Assembly: GCA_022822525.1 (NCBI GenBank)
Contig: JAJEBN010000024.1
Coordinates: 1 to 64,000 of the forward strand
From: Acidimicrobiia bacterium
Lineage (GTDB): Bacteria > Actinomycetota > Acidimicrobiia > Acidimicrobiales > Poriferisodalaceae
Direction of reading: 5' to 3'
Length of the DNA: 64,000 bases
Positions 29,361 through 38,265 of the stretch are shown in pieces; position 1 is the first letter of the stretch, and every line of letters starts with the position of its first letter. A program made the translations under genes and the position numbers. The notes under the pieces are model-generated. The model saw nothing but the letters and a program-made list of their open reading frames with translations, made no database searches and was not told the DNA's origin.

Positions 29361-30596
29361 ATGAACCTCGACGCCTCTGCCGTCGGGACTGACACGATCC
29401 TCATACGGGTAACCGGCCCCGACGGACCGGGCATCACGACTGATCTGCTGGCCCTGCTCTCGAGTGCCGGCGCGGACGTGCAGGACATGGAGCAGGTTGT
29501 CGTCCGCCGCCAGCTCACGCTCGGGCTCGCAATCACGGTTCCGGCAGGCCGAGATCTTGTCAAGGAAGTGCTGCTGTTCGGCTATGAGCGGGGCCTGGAG
29601 ATGAACTTCGAGGTCGTGGACGCCACGCCGACCCGGCACGCGGAGCGTCTCGTGGTCACTGCCTTGGCGCCCGAGCTGAAGCCTGCGGACTTGTCGGTGG
29701 TGACGGGAGCGATCGCCACCAGTGGGGGGAACATCGACCGCATTCACCGGCTGTCGCGCTTTCCGGTGTGGAGCTACGAGTTTCTTGTCGAGGGCGCCGA
29801 GAGCGACAAGCTGCGCACCGACCTCATCGAGGTGGCCGCTGATCGCCGCATCGACATCGCCGTGCAGCCCCACGGCTTGTCACGGCGCTCGACCCGCATG
29901 ATCGTGATGGATGTCGACTCCACCCTCATCCGCAACGAGGTCATCGATCTGCTGGCCGCCGAGGCCGGGCACGAGGCCCGTTCGGCTGAGCTGACCGCTG
30001 CGGCCATGGCCGGCGAAATCGACTTTGAGACTTCCTTGCGCAAGCGGGTGAGGCTGCTGACGGGTCAGCCCGCCTCGATCATCGACTCGGCGATCGTGCA
30101 CATGTCGCTCACCCGGGGAGCCCGCACCTTCGCGCGCACCCTGAAGCGGCTGGGGTACAAGATCGCGATCATCTCCGGCGGCTTCACGCACTTCACCGAT
30201 CATCTGGCGGAGCGCTTCAAGTTTGATCACGCGTACGCGAACGAACTCGAGATCCGCGACGGCAGGCTGACCGGCGAGCTGGTCGGCGAGGTGATCGATG
30301 CCGAGGCCAAGGCGCGGCTGCTGCGGCAGCTCGCGTACATCGAGGGCGTGCCGCTGGAGCAGATCGTCGCGGTGGGTGACGGCGCCAACGACCTGCCCAT
30401 GCTGACCGCGGCCGGGCTCGGCATCGCGTTCAACGCCAAACCGGTGCTCGTCGATGCGGCGGACGCCACCGTGAACGTGCCGTATCTGGACGCGATCCTG
30501 TTCATGCTGGGCGTCACGCGCGAAGAGGTCGAAGCCGCCGATGCCTCGACGACGCCGCTGAATGCCGAGCGGCCCCTCTCGACGCTGCTGCCCTGA
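29361..30596 (+). CDS. serB: Phosphoserine phosphatase with two ACT domains
   Basis: The enzyme removes phosphate from L-phosphoserine, the last step of serine synthesis. Two ACT-like domains occupy residues about 10-80 and 95-170 (TGPDGPGITTDLL; VTGAIATSGGNIDRIHRL), as in the mycobacterial SerB2 type. The HAD catalytic motif DVDSTL follows (Asp183 nucleophile, Asp185), then motif II IISGGFTHF and motif III/IV VAVGDGANDLPML. At 411 residues it has the SerB2 length. Serine feeds the glycine cleavage genes that follow, although they are separated by the ArsC gene. Confidence 0.95.
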   Translation: MNLDASAVGTDTILIRVTGPDGPGITTDLLALLSSAGADVQDMEQVVVRRQLTLGLAITVPAGRDLVKEVLLFGYERGLEMNFEVVDATPTRHAERLVVTALAPELKPADLSVVTGAIATSGGNIDRIHRLSRFPVWSYEFLVEGAESDKLRTDLIEVAADRRIDIAVQPHGLSRRSTRMIVMDVDSTLIRNEVIDLLAAEAGHEARSAELTAAAMAGEIDFETSLRKRVRLLTGQPASIIDSAIVHMSLTRGARTFARTLKRLGYKIAIISGGFTHFTDHLAERFKFDHAYANELEIRDGRLTGELVGEVIDAEAKARLLRQLAYIEGVPLEQIVAVGDGANDLPMLTAAGLGIAFNAKPVLVDAADATVNVPYLDAILFMLGVTREEVEAADASTTPLNAERPLSTLLP

Positions 30597-30762
30597 CGAA
30601 CCGGCGCGCCTGTCCAGACTCGGGCGCCTCGCGCAGGTAACTTCGGGTCTGGTGCAGGGCCCGGCCGAGCCCGACTGCTGCGGGCGCAATCTCGCCGATC
30701 CGCAGCAGCACGGCGCAGAACGCCACACCCTGCCCGCCACACACGACGACAGGAGCGCGCTC

Positions 30763-31122
30763 ATGGCAGAGGTGACGATCTACCACAACCCCCACTGAAA
30801 TTCCTCCCGGAATGCCTTGGCGGTCGCCGAGGAAGCAGGTGTGGAGGCCGACGTCGTCCTGTACATGAAGACGCCGCCCGACCGCGAGACGCTCGAGCAT
30901 CTCGTGTCGATTCTCGAGGACCCCGTCGAGGACTTGGTCCGCAAGGATTCGCAGTTCAAGAAGCTGGACCTGAACGCCGACGACTACGTCGACAATCCCG
31001 ACGCAGTGGTGGAGCTGCTGAGCCGGCGCAAGGCGCTCATGCAGCGCCCGGTCGTGGTGCGCGGAGACCGGGCCATCATCGGACGTCCGAAGGGTCGCAT
31101 CGCCGAGCTGCTGGCGGGCTGA
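30763..31122 (+). CDS. arsC: ArsC-family reductase with in-frame TGA (selenocysteine) at the catalytic cysteine, 119 aa
   Basis: The ATG at 30763 has AGGAG 7 bp upstream and reads MAEVTIYHNPH, then TGA at 30796-30798, then NSSRNALAVAEEAG and on to the normal end at 31122. ArsC proteins read YHNPxC at this point with catalytic Cys12; here codon 12 is TGA, so Sec12 is the natural reading. The rest is intact: the anion-binding arginine segments LVRKDSQFKKL and LMQRPVVVRGDRAIIGRP are present. A hairpin 16 nt after the TGA fits a bacterial SECIS. The family reduces arsenate or related thiol/selenol substrates with glutaredoxin- or mycoredoxin-like partners. selD, also with a TGA codon, is 6 kb away. 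Without recoding the ORF would start at 30817 and lack the active site. It could instead be a decayed gene, but no other lesion is visible. Confidence 0.9.
30815..30832 (+). promoter_or_regulatory. Bacterial SECIS-like hairpin in the ArsC gene
   Basis: CCTTGGC (30815-30821) pairs with GCCGAGG (30826-30832), seven pairs including one G-U, around the loop GGTC. The stem begins 16 nt after the TGA, and the loop starts with G, as bacterial SECIS elements bound by SelB do. An alternative small hairpin, ATTCC/GGAAT, lies between them (30800-30813). Confidence 0.7.
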
Positions 31123-31135
31123 GACGCACCGGTTG

Positions 31136-32314
31136 ATGCGAGACACGAGCGAACCTCACGCTGCAGGCGCTGGGGCAGACCCGCAGACCGGCGGTATTCG
31201 CACACCCCTTCATCAGCTGCACGCCGAGCTCGGTGGTCGAATGGTCAACTTCGGCGGTCACGCGCTGCCCATGCGCTACGACGACGGCACCGTGGCGGAG
31301 CACCGCGCCACCCGCACGGCGGCCGGACTCTTCGACGTGAGCCACATGGGCATCGTCGAGCTCCACCCGGCATCCGGAGACGAAGTCGACGATGTGGCGA
31401 CGTGGCTGGAGGGCCGCGTGCCGGGCGCCGTTGCCAGCCTCGTACCGGGACGCATGAGATACACCCTGTTCACGACGGCTGCGGGCGGCGTTCTGGACGA
31501 CCTGATCGTGTCGTGTCAACCGGATCGGCTGCGCATGGTGGTCAACGCCGTGCGCACCGAGGCCGACCTGTCGATGCTTCGGGATGTCAACGGCGGTGAC
31601 GACGGCGACGTGCGCATCGAGGTGCGAACCGATCTGGCGCTGGTTGCCCTGCAGGGGCCCGCCGCATCCGGCGCACTGGCTCGCTGGGCGCCGGAGGCCG
31701 CAGAGCTGGCGTTCATGACGACGGCCCCGATGCCGATCGACGGCGTCGAGTGCGAGGTCTCACGTTGCGGGTACACGGGCGAGGACGGGTTCGAGATCGC
31801 GGTACCCGCGGAGCACGCCGTACACGTCGCGCGGCTGCTGTTGGAAAGCGACGAGGTGTCTCCGGCGGGCCTCGGCGCCCGCGACACGCTGCGTCTCGAG
31901 GCAGGCCTGCCGCTCGTCGGCCACGAACTCACCGAGGCGACGACCCCGGCCGAGGCCGGCCTGGGCTGGTCGATACCGAGGCGACGACGCGCGGAGGGCG
32001 GGTTCCCTGGCGCGGACGTCATCACGGCCCAGCTCTCCGGTGGACCCCCACGCCGGCGGGTGGGCATCGCCGCAGATGGCCGGCGGCCAATTCGCGACGG
32101 TGCGGAGCTGGCCGATGCCGGCGGCACACGCCTCGGCATGGTCACCAGCGGTGGCTACGGGCCCACCGTGGATGCACCGATCGCCATGGCCTACGTCGAG
32201 GCCGAGTTCGCATCCGACGGCACCGAGCTGTTCGCCCACGGACGCAAGGGCGCAGAGCCCTGCCGGGTCGTGCCGCTGCCCTTCGTCGAGCACCGCTACT
32301 GGCGGCCGTCATGA
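31136..32314 (+). CDS. gcvT: Aminomethyltransferase (glycine cleavage T protein), 392 aa
   Basis: The T protein transfers the aminomethyl carbon from lipoyl-H protein to tetrahydrofolate. Signatures are GGHALPMRYDDG, AGLFDVSHMG, LVALQGPAA, SRCGYTGEDGFEI and GLGARDTLRLEAGLPL, the last typical for GcvT. The tail GPTVDAPIAMAYVEAEFA is also normal. The start is taken as the ATG at 31136 (TTG at 31133 is adjacent), 14 bp after the ArsC stop, so the two genes are probably co-transcribed. gcvP follows after 85 bp; gcvH is 20 kb away at 54983-55384. Confidence 0.95.
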   Translation: MRDTSEPHAAGAGADPQTGGIRTPLHQLHAELGGRMVNFGGHALPMRYDDGTVAEHRATRTAAGLFDVSHMGIVELHPASGDEVDDVATWLEGRVPGAVASLVPGRMRYTLFTTAAGGVLDDLIVSCQPDRLRMVVNAVRTEADLSMLRDVNGGDDGDVRIEVRTDLALVALQGPAASGALARWAPEAAELAFMTTAPMPIDGVECEVSRCGYTGEDGFEIAVPAEHAVHVARLLLESDEVSPAGLGARDTLRLEAGLPLVGHELTEATTPAEAGLGWSIPRRRRAEGGFPGADVITAQLSGGPPRRRVGIAADGRRPIRDGAELADAGGTRLGMVTSGGYGPTVDAPIAMAYVEAEFASDGTELFAHGRKGAEPCRVVPLPFVEHRYWRPS

Positions 32315-37140: not shown

Positions 37141-38265
37141 GTGCCGACCGACAGCACCGCGAACAGCCCGGCGTTCCGGCTGAGCCAGTACAGCCACGGT
37201 GCGGGCTGAGCGTGCAAGCTCGGACCTTCCGAGCTGGCGCAGGTTCTGCGCCATCTGACTCCCCCGTCGCATCCGGATCTGCTGGTGGGCACCGACACCA
37301 GCGACGATGCTGCCGTGTGGCGCCTCGACGGCGACCGGCTGCTGGTGGCGTCGACTGATTTCTTCGCGCCGATCGTGGACGATGCCCGCACGTGGGGGCG
37401 CATTGCGGCCGCCAACGCCGCGAGCGACATCTACGCCATGGGCGCCAGCCCGCTGTTCGCCCTCAACCTGGCGGCCTGGCCCCGCGATGTGCTCCCGCTG
37501 GACTTGCTGGGCGAGGTGCTCGCCGGCGGCGCTGATGCCGCGGCCGACGGCGGCTGGGTGGTAGCCGGCGGTCACACCATTGACGCACCCGAGCCGCTCT
37601 ACGGAATGTCGGTGACCGGCACCATCGCAGCTGCTGCCGGAGGATTGGGCCTGCTGACCAATGCCGGGGGGCAGCCGGGCCAGGCCCTCGTGCTCACCAA
37701 GCCGCTCGGCACCGGCCTGCTCGCGACTGCGCTGAAGCGTTCCGAACCCGATGCCACTGGGCCCGACGGCAAACTGCATGCGGCCTACGAGGCCGGCGTA
37801 GCCGAGATGTGCCGGCTCAACGACGCGGCCGCCGCCGCTGCCGTCGAGGCAGGTGCCACAGCGGCCACCGATGTGACCGGCTTCGGCCTGCTGGGCCACC
37901 TCGCAGAACTCGCTGCGGCCAGCGGGGCGAGTGCCGAGGTGGATGCAGGCGCTGTGCCACTGCTGCCCGACGTCACCGGGCTCGCAACTGGCGGCTTCGT
38001 GCCCGGAGGCACCGGGCGCAACCTGGATCATCTCGCCGAGCGCATCGACGGCGGCGACGAACTCACTCGCACCGTACTCGGAGACCCGCAGACCTCGGGC
38101 GGTCTGCTGTTCAGCTGCGATCCCGCACGCGCCGATGACGCTGTCCGTGAGCTGCGCGACAACGGCCATTGCGCCGCAGTGATCGGCGAGCTCGCCGACG
38201 GACATTCCGGCACAATCACCATCGCCGGTGCCGTCGCCGGAGACGCCGGACCCTCGTCAGACTGA
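37141..38265 (+). CDS. selD: Selenide, water dikinase with in-frame TGA (selenocysteine) at its active-site cysteine
   Basis: SelD makes selenophosphate from selenide and ATP, the selenium donor for selenocysteyl-tRNA and selenouridine. From the GTG at 37141 the frame reads VPTDSTANSPAFRLSQYSHGAG, then TGA at 37207-37209, then ACKLGPSEL. E. coli SelD has QYSHGAGCGCK here with catalytic Cys17, so codon 23 is selenocysteine, as in many SelD enzymes; the catalytic lysine (ACK) follows. The remainder is intact, with DDAAVW, AANAASDIYAMGASPLFAL, GGHTIDAPEPLYG and ATDVTGFGLLGHLAEL, ending in DPQTSGGLL. The 374-residue length is normal. An internal start at 37285 would lack the entire ATP/selenide site. 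An 8-bp hairpin follows the TGA. Confidence 0.93.
37217..37235 (+). promoter_or_regulatory. SECIS-candidate hairpin in selD
   Basis: AGCTCGGA (37217-37224) and TCCGAGCT (37228-37235) are perfectly complementary around CCT, starting 7 nt after the TGA. The position suits a bacterial SECIS, but the loop has no G at its start and the spacing to the TGA is short, so this element is less canonical than that in the ArsC gene. Confidence 0.5.

Follow-up and report, generated by a model that had tools for sequence, protein, structure and literature searches.

The window, that is, the whole stretch of 64,000 nucleotides analysed here, contains an ArsC-like gene with one in-frame TGA and, downstream of it, a selD gene that also carries one internal TGA (Table 1). 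The TGA of the ArsC-like gene shares its frame with the ATG at 30763, and reading through it gives an ArsC-like protein that matches PF03960 with 55 bits (cut-off 24). With C written for U, the same protein scored 95.8 bits against the TIGR00014 equivalog (arsenate reductase, glutaredoxin), below the curated cut-off of 106.05. Solved ArsC structures were matched by phmmer, e.g., 3rdw and 1i9d, including R773 ArsC, and the Cys of the matched proteins aligns with the TGA codon. The criterion used for an ArsC selenoprotein, a UxxS motif within the domain, corresponds here to U12-N-S-S15 and the PF03960 match above cut-off. His8, Arg60, Arg95, and Arg108 are kept in 68/68 rows of the homologue group termed type A below; judging from the alignment and the known residue roles, they probably correspond to the catalytic residues of R773 ArsC. 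The neighbouring genes are not ars genes but presumably serB-like and gcvT-like ones, judging from their sequences. The final stop of the ArsC-like gene is also a TGA, and annotation that treats the internal TGA as a stop would cut the gene short.

Table 1. Positions of the ArsC-like gene, selD, and their associated elements in the window.
Feature	Position	Strand	Remark
ArsC-like selenoprotein CDS (predicted)	30763..31122	+	119 residues with Sec12 (...HNPHU-NSSRN...)
Possible ribosome site of arsC-like CDS	30751-30755		AGGAG
Predicted Sec codon, in-frame TGA at catalytic Cys position	30796..30798	+	aligned with Cys of PDB ArsC
Probable SECIS, 5' arm CCUUGGC	30815..30821	+	
Probable SECIS, apical loop GGUC	30822..30825	+	23 nt after UGA
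Probable SECIS, 3' arm GCCGAGG	30826..30832	+	
selD (selenophosphate synthetase), predicted selenoprotein gene	37141..38265	+	TIGR00476 355 bits, 1 internal TGA; AIRS domains; start GTG 37141 is a guess
selD in-frame TGA (GAG-U-ACK)	37207..37209	+	
selD predicted SECIS UGGCGCA-GGUUC-UGCGCCA	37235..37253	+	32 nt UGA to loop

The first-pass annotation had described a seven-pair stem with one G-U pair and the loop GGTC, 16 nt past the TGA of the ArsC-like gene, and this description is exact: 30815-30832 reads CCTTGGC-GGTC-GCCGAGG, which forms seven pairs, one of them U30818.G30829, around a 4-nt loop with G first, and the distances from the UGA are 16 nt to the stem and 23 nt to the loop. RNAfold predicted the same stem within 30790-30850 and gave −10.7 kcal/mol for 30815-30832 folded alone. 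The spacing and the loop G had also been called typical of bacterial SECIS elements. The bSECIS model, in the form quoted in PMC13188914, agrees on every point: a loop of 3-9 nt, a stem of 4-16 bp, an MFE of at most −7.5, a G in the first two loop positions (GGUC), and a UGA-to-loop spacing of 16-37 nt (23 nt) all apply to the window hairpin, which differs from the model in nothing. The hairpin was further said to be superimposed on the coding sequence of a helix, and an AlphaFold model (mean pLDDT 89.7) indeed places residues 13-24 in a helix directly after residue 12.

By energy or frequency alone, the window hairpin is unremarkable. Its single-sequence folding z-score is −0.49, and the window has a GC content of 68%. 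Among the 1508 TGA trinucleotides on both strands of the window, 161 are followed at 16-37 nt by a hairpin of at least seven pairs with G in the first two loop positions, and four by such a hairpin at exactly the spacing and loop size seen here. Since comparable hairpins are common in a window of this GC content, the observation from one sequence is accurate but carries no evidential weight by itself. An Rfam search of 30500-31400 at E up to 10 returned four chance matches and no SECIS. That the hairpin is clearly beyond chance follows from the comparison with homologues rather than from single-sequence statistics.

Relatives were collected from several sources. Named records supplied 64 loci, mostly MAGs called Acidimicrobiia. 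An orthologue was found in 36 of 39 family genomes (37 matches, each with exactly one in-frame TGA), and in all 36, UGA stands in place of the catalytic Cys codon and is followed by a hairpin of the window type with the loop GGTC. The class-level search gave matches in 100 of 296 genomes, from which 100 places were retrieved, and a phylum search of 396 genomes, aimed at further relatives of the 46-nt group described below, gave a match in 35, mostly without an in-frame TGA. Three rows were left out, two whose match does not cover the site (L072 and L079) and one with no tblastn match (L219). Merging identical rows reduced 172 to 165 (compared over 75 nt) and then to 157 (over the 45 nt that follow the codon); these 157 distinct rows comprise 96 with TGA and 61 with Cys. 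The TGA rows were sorted into 68 of type A, defined by motif and carrying the window hairpin; 14 of type B, also defined by motif and including MAGs named Ilumatobacter; and the remaining 14, type D (O in our scripts), which are not defined by motif and read HNPxU-G.... All 36 family orthologues are type A. The type A motif covers the loop and the inner pairs, so the invariance of the loop in the 68 rows is partly by definition, as is, in part, the loop G in 68/68; the motif has no bearing on the outer pairs, on the hairpin position, or on the 36 orthologues from the family. Two MAGs named Akkermansiaceae also carry a type A Sec-ArsC (L070 3001-3354 and L071 469-822), 61-62% identical and with the identical hairpin, reflecting either gene transfer or misbinned contigs. 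A 19-mer search in IMG/VR found six contigs, none of them with a correctly placed TGA; the 19-mer is thus not diagnostic by itself.

In type A, all seven pairs are formed in 65 of 68 rows and six in the other three, in which the outermost pair is lost. Overall, 99.4% of the 476 cells are paired, compared with at most 70% when the partners were slid. Compensatory substitutions, which the first-pass annotation had proposed to look for, occur in 14 double-change cells, a count reached by 0/500 shuffles. These cells fall in two pairs, a number that is unexceptional, as 152/500 shuffles match it. The compensations comprise a change from G-C to A-U in nine type A rows and, at pair 22-35, a change from U-A to G-C in five (L058, L136, L143, L144, and L146). 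On the best tree, at least seven changes are needed to explain A-U at pair 24-33, but restricting the count to well supported branches leaves just three independent A-U/G-C contrasts (sign test, p 0.25). Cys homologues that keep the hairpin, which the first-pass annotation had named as a refutation, did not turn up, with 0/61 forming all seven pairs and 0/61 having the loop GGTC; the structure is thus maintained through compensatory substitution where homologues have UGA and is missing where they have Cys, a criterion added here to those of the bSECIS model. When 5-8 pairs were scanned at all spacings, each Sec group yielded a single hairpin with complete or near-complete conservation; in type A, 96% of rows have all seven pairs and 100% have six, whereas no hairpin exceeded 13% in the Cys rows.

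Pairing of this kind could be a by-product of protein conservation: ALAVAE would be required in the helix, and the pairing of its GC-rich codons would be coincidental. Such an origin fits three observations: type A shows almost no variation at residues 18-23, five of the seven pairs involve a first or second codon position, and hairpins arise often in GC-rich sequence. It is nonetheless already contradicted, and we regard it as very improbable. Third bases are frozen in the hairpin only: their majority share averages 0.95 there (4/6 positions invariant), against a mean of 0.57 and a maximum of 0.85 at 22 conserved codons outside it. The hairpin Leu codon, which gives the U of the U-A pair, is UUR in all 63 type A rows with Leu at that position, whereas UUR makes up 120/802 of the Leu codons elsewhere in these type A genes and 5.9% in four window neighbour genes; in the Cys homologues the same codon is CUN in 34/34 and UUR in 0/34. 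The switch at pair 22-35 replaces Leu by Val and Glu by Ala or Thr, so that two residues are altered at once by changes that preserve pairing. Finally, the residues encoded by the hairpin vary in the Cys homologues (entropy 1.0-2.7 bits), as opposed to 0-0.6 bits at residues 19-23 in type A. At codon resolution, one stretch can thus be seen to serve both as RNA signal and as coding sequence for a protein helix, the two-residue compensations included. On unusually clear evolutionary evidence, the homologue comparison settles the hairpin as a real RNA element.

Folding energy was also tried as a discriminator and rejected: the synonymous-shuffle z was −0.85 in type A versus −0.77 in the Cys homologues, with no separation. 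The mean z was −1.54 in the 14 type D rows and −0.46 in the type B rows.

The expectation that TGA homologues would share the window hairpin did not, taken literally, hold for 28 of the 96 TGA rows, yet these 28 form the two groups of 14, types B and D, each with a fully conserved hairpin of its own. In type B (L074, L075, L129, L131-L135, L137, L141, L145, L147, L148, and L153), a six-pair stem with the loop CGUGC or CGUGA lies 17 nt from the UGA. Its core folds at about −5 kcal/mol (three rows folded), short of the bSECIS energy criterion, and because only one pair varies, conservation rather than covariation supports this putative element. In type D (L114, L151, L154, L159, L171, L174, L178, L186, L198, L200, L203, L206, L209, and L210), the sole conserved hairpin of the group has 6-7 pairs and the loop AGUU and lies 46 nt from the UGA. 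Six of its pairs show 100% pairing in the 14 rows, with four double-change cells (0/500 shuffles); the five inner pairs are formed by 5/61 Cys rows, none of the five with the loop AGUU.

The 46-nt relatives break the spacing rule of the bSECIS model. According to the statements quoted from PMC13188914, 16-37 nt holds for most bacterial elements and some do not fit the model; because that review allows elements outside it, 46 nt is an extension of the published range, not a contradiction. Type A and type D Sec-ArsC genes occur together in five genomes (G006, G284, G225, G207, and G249), each of which has one SelB. We lean toward the reading that, within one family, a SECIS element may stand at 17, 23, or 46 nt with a loop that is always N-G-U, that a single SelB would read the 23- and 46-nt types in these five genomes, the latter exceeding the accepted limit, and that the hairpin would dictate the local protein wherever it is placed. 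The passages of running text consulted in the Sec-ArsC literature contained no account of SECIS position shifts within one family.

The genome of the ArsC-like gene carries selA, selB (beside selA), selD, and a tRNA-Sec with anticodon UCA, the last identified by ARAGORN. As sole proof of tRNA-Sec, RF01852 was discarded, with 15 matches here and matches in all 14 controls. SelB has a SelB-wing_3 domain, and its C-terminal domain aligns with 1wsu (Moorella-type SelB; E 1.3e-8) and also matches 2ply and 1lva/2uwm. Exactly one SelB scored above the cut-off in each of 23 genomes checked, and a looser motif scan found the conserved RK...TRR block of SelB in 21 of them, missing L288 (short contig) and L295. 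The selA gene is present in 37/37 Sec-ArsC genomes versus 22/43 Cys-ArsC genomes (Fisher p 1.7e-7), a test that took in 80 of the 100 matching class genomes and left out 20, mainly those with the weakest matches.

These findings bear on whether the UGA is read through by some other route, with Cys or Trp inserted or the hairpin acting as a general readthrough element. The inserted residue is not identifiable from sequence, which leaves such a route some room, but it is very unlikely: TGA is the normal stop of the ArsC-like gene itself and of neighbours such as 29361-30596, the tRNA-Sec has the matching anticodon, selA accompanies every TGA-ArsC genome tested, and the catalytic Cys aligns with the TGA. 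Least credible of all is an ordinary stop in a split gene or pseudogene, with a shorter protein made from TTG 30817, for although the ORF list has a 101-aa ORF from this TTG and TGA is also the final stop of the gene, a single in-frame TGA recurs in all 37 family matches, His8 before it and the three Arg after it are kept throughout type A, and the Sec machinery is complete.

By comparative criteria, the 18-nt hairpin is therefore almost certainly the SECIS of an ArsC that contains selenocysteine. From the gene, the UGA at the Cys position, the conserved and covarying hairpin, and the Sec machinery, all directly observed, we infer SelB binding, Sec insertion, the enzyme chemistry, and the substrate as follows. 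With a ribosome at UGA12, SelB carrying Sec-tRNA(UCA) would bind the downstream hairpin through its C-terminal winged helix, and the UGA would be decoded as Sec, not stop. Once unwound by the ribosome, the hairpin would itself be translated, giving residues 18-24 of the helix after the catalytic residue. In an oxyanion reductase of the ArsC type (thiol- or glutaredoxin-coupled), Sec12 would be the likely nucleophile, together with the three conserved arginines.

Arsenate reduction is the assumed role of the ArsC family. The window protein shares with the glutaredoxin-dependent ArsC of plasmid R773 (1i9d) the domain, the catalytic position, His8, and three Arg, and differs from it in having Sec instead of Cys. 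A search of its own genome (G000, assembly 98% complete) for an Acr3/ArsB arsenite exporter gave no TIGR00832 or PF02040 match. ArsC-like oxyanion or disulfide chemistry is likely, and because the exporter was not found although ArsC is present, the substrate may be other than arsenate.

The loop GGUC is also that of the E. coli fdhF and Moorella RNAs, and the E. coli SECIS has a bulged U where the window hairpin has its U.G pair. Compared with the E. coli fdhF SECIS and the SelB-SECIS complex of Moorella thermoacetica, the C-terminal domain of SelB is alike and the stem sequence of the window hairpin differs.

Sec-ArsC with a SECIS-like hairpin has been known since 2005, and the window element adds a member. 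According to the portions of these sources consulted, Sec-ArsC (UxxS) was reported in 2005 from the Sargasso Sea with 14 sequences (PMC1088965), GOS added 77 sequences in 2008 (PMC2398784), and the 2026 review lists the family (PMC13188914). The published family (ArsC 1, pfam03960/COG1393/TIGR00014) and the window protein share UxxS, here U-N-S-S, the ArsC domain, and a SECIS-like hairpin after the UGA (PMC1088965, PMC2398784, PMC13188914), and the window protein departs from it in falling below the TIGR00014 cut-off. Relative to the published members, compared here through the text of the papers, the present data add covariation, codon bias, and alternative hairpin positions. The available text of the deep-Sep paper (PMC12013277) does not mention arsenate, and Acidimicrobi* was not found among the matches listed for literature on arsenate reductase and selenoprotein. 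According to the review, almost all selenoproteins of this sort depend on bioinformatic evidence, and what they do is for the most part uncharacterized (PMC13188914), which makes the present clade, having a single SelB, a good test bed.

The selD hairpin forms all seven pairs in 28/28 distinct family rows (30 loci), and its loops read N-G-U. With it, the relatives provide natural hairpins at 17, 23, 32 (selD), and 46 nt, which bear on how far from the UGA a SECIS can work. The arsC and selD genes, both containing UGA, share one contig and lie within ~12 kb of each other in 25 of the 36 family genomes that have an arsC orthologue; in the window, the genes between them are presumably gcvT- and gcvP-like, judging from their sequences.
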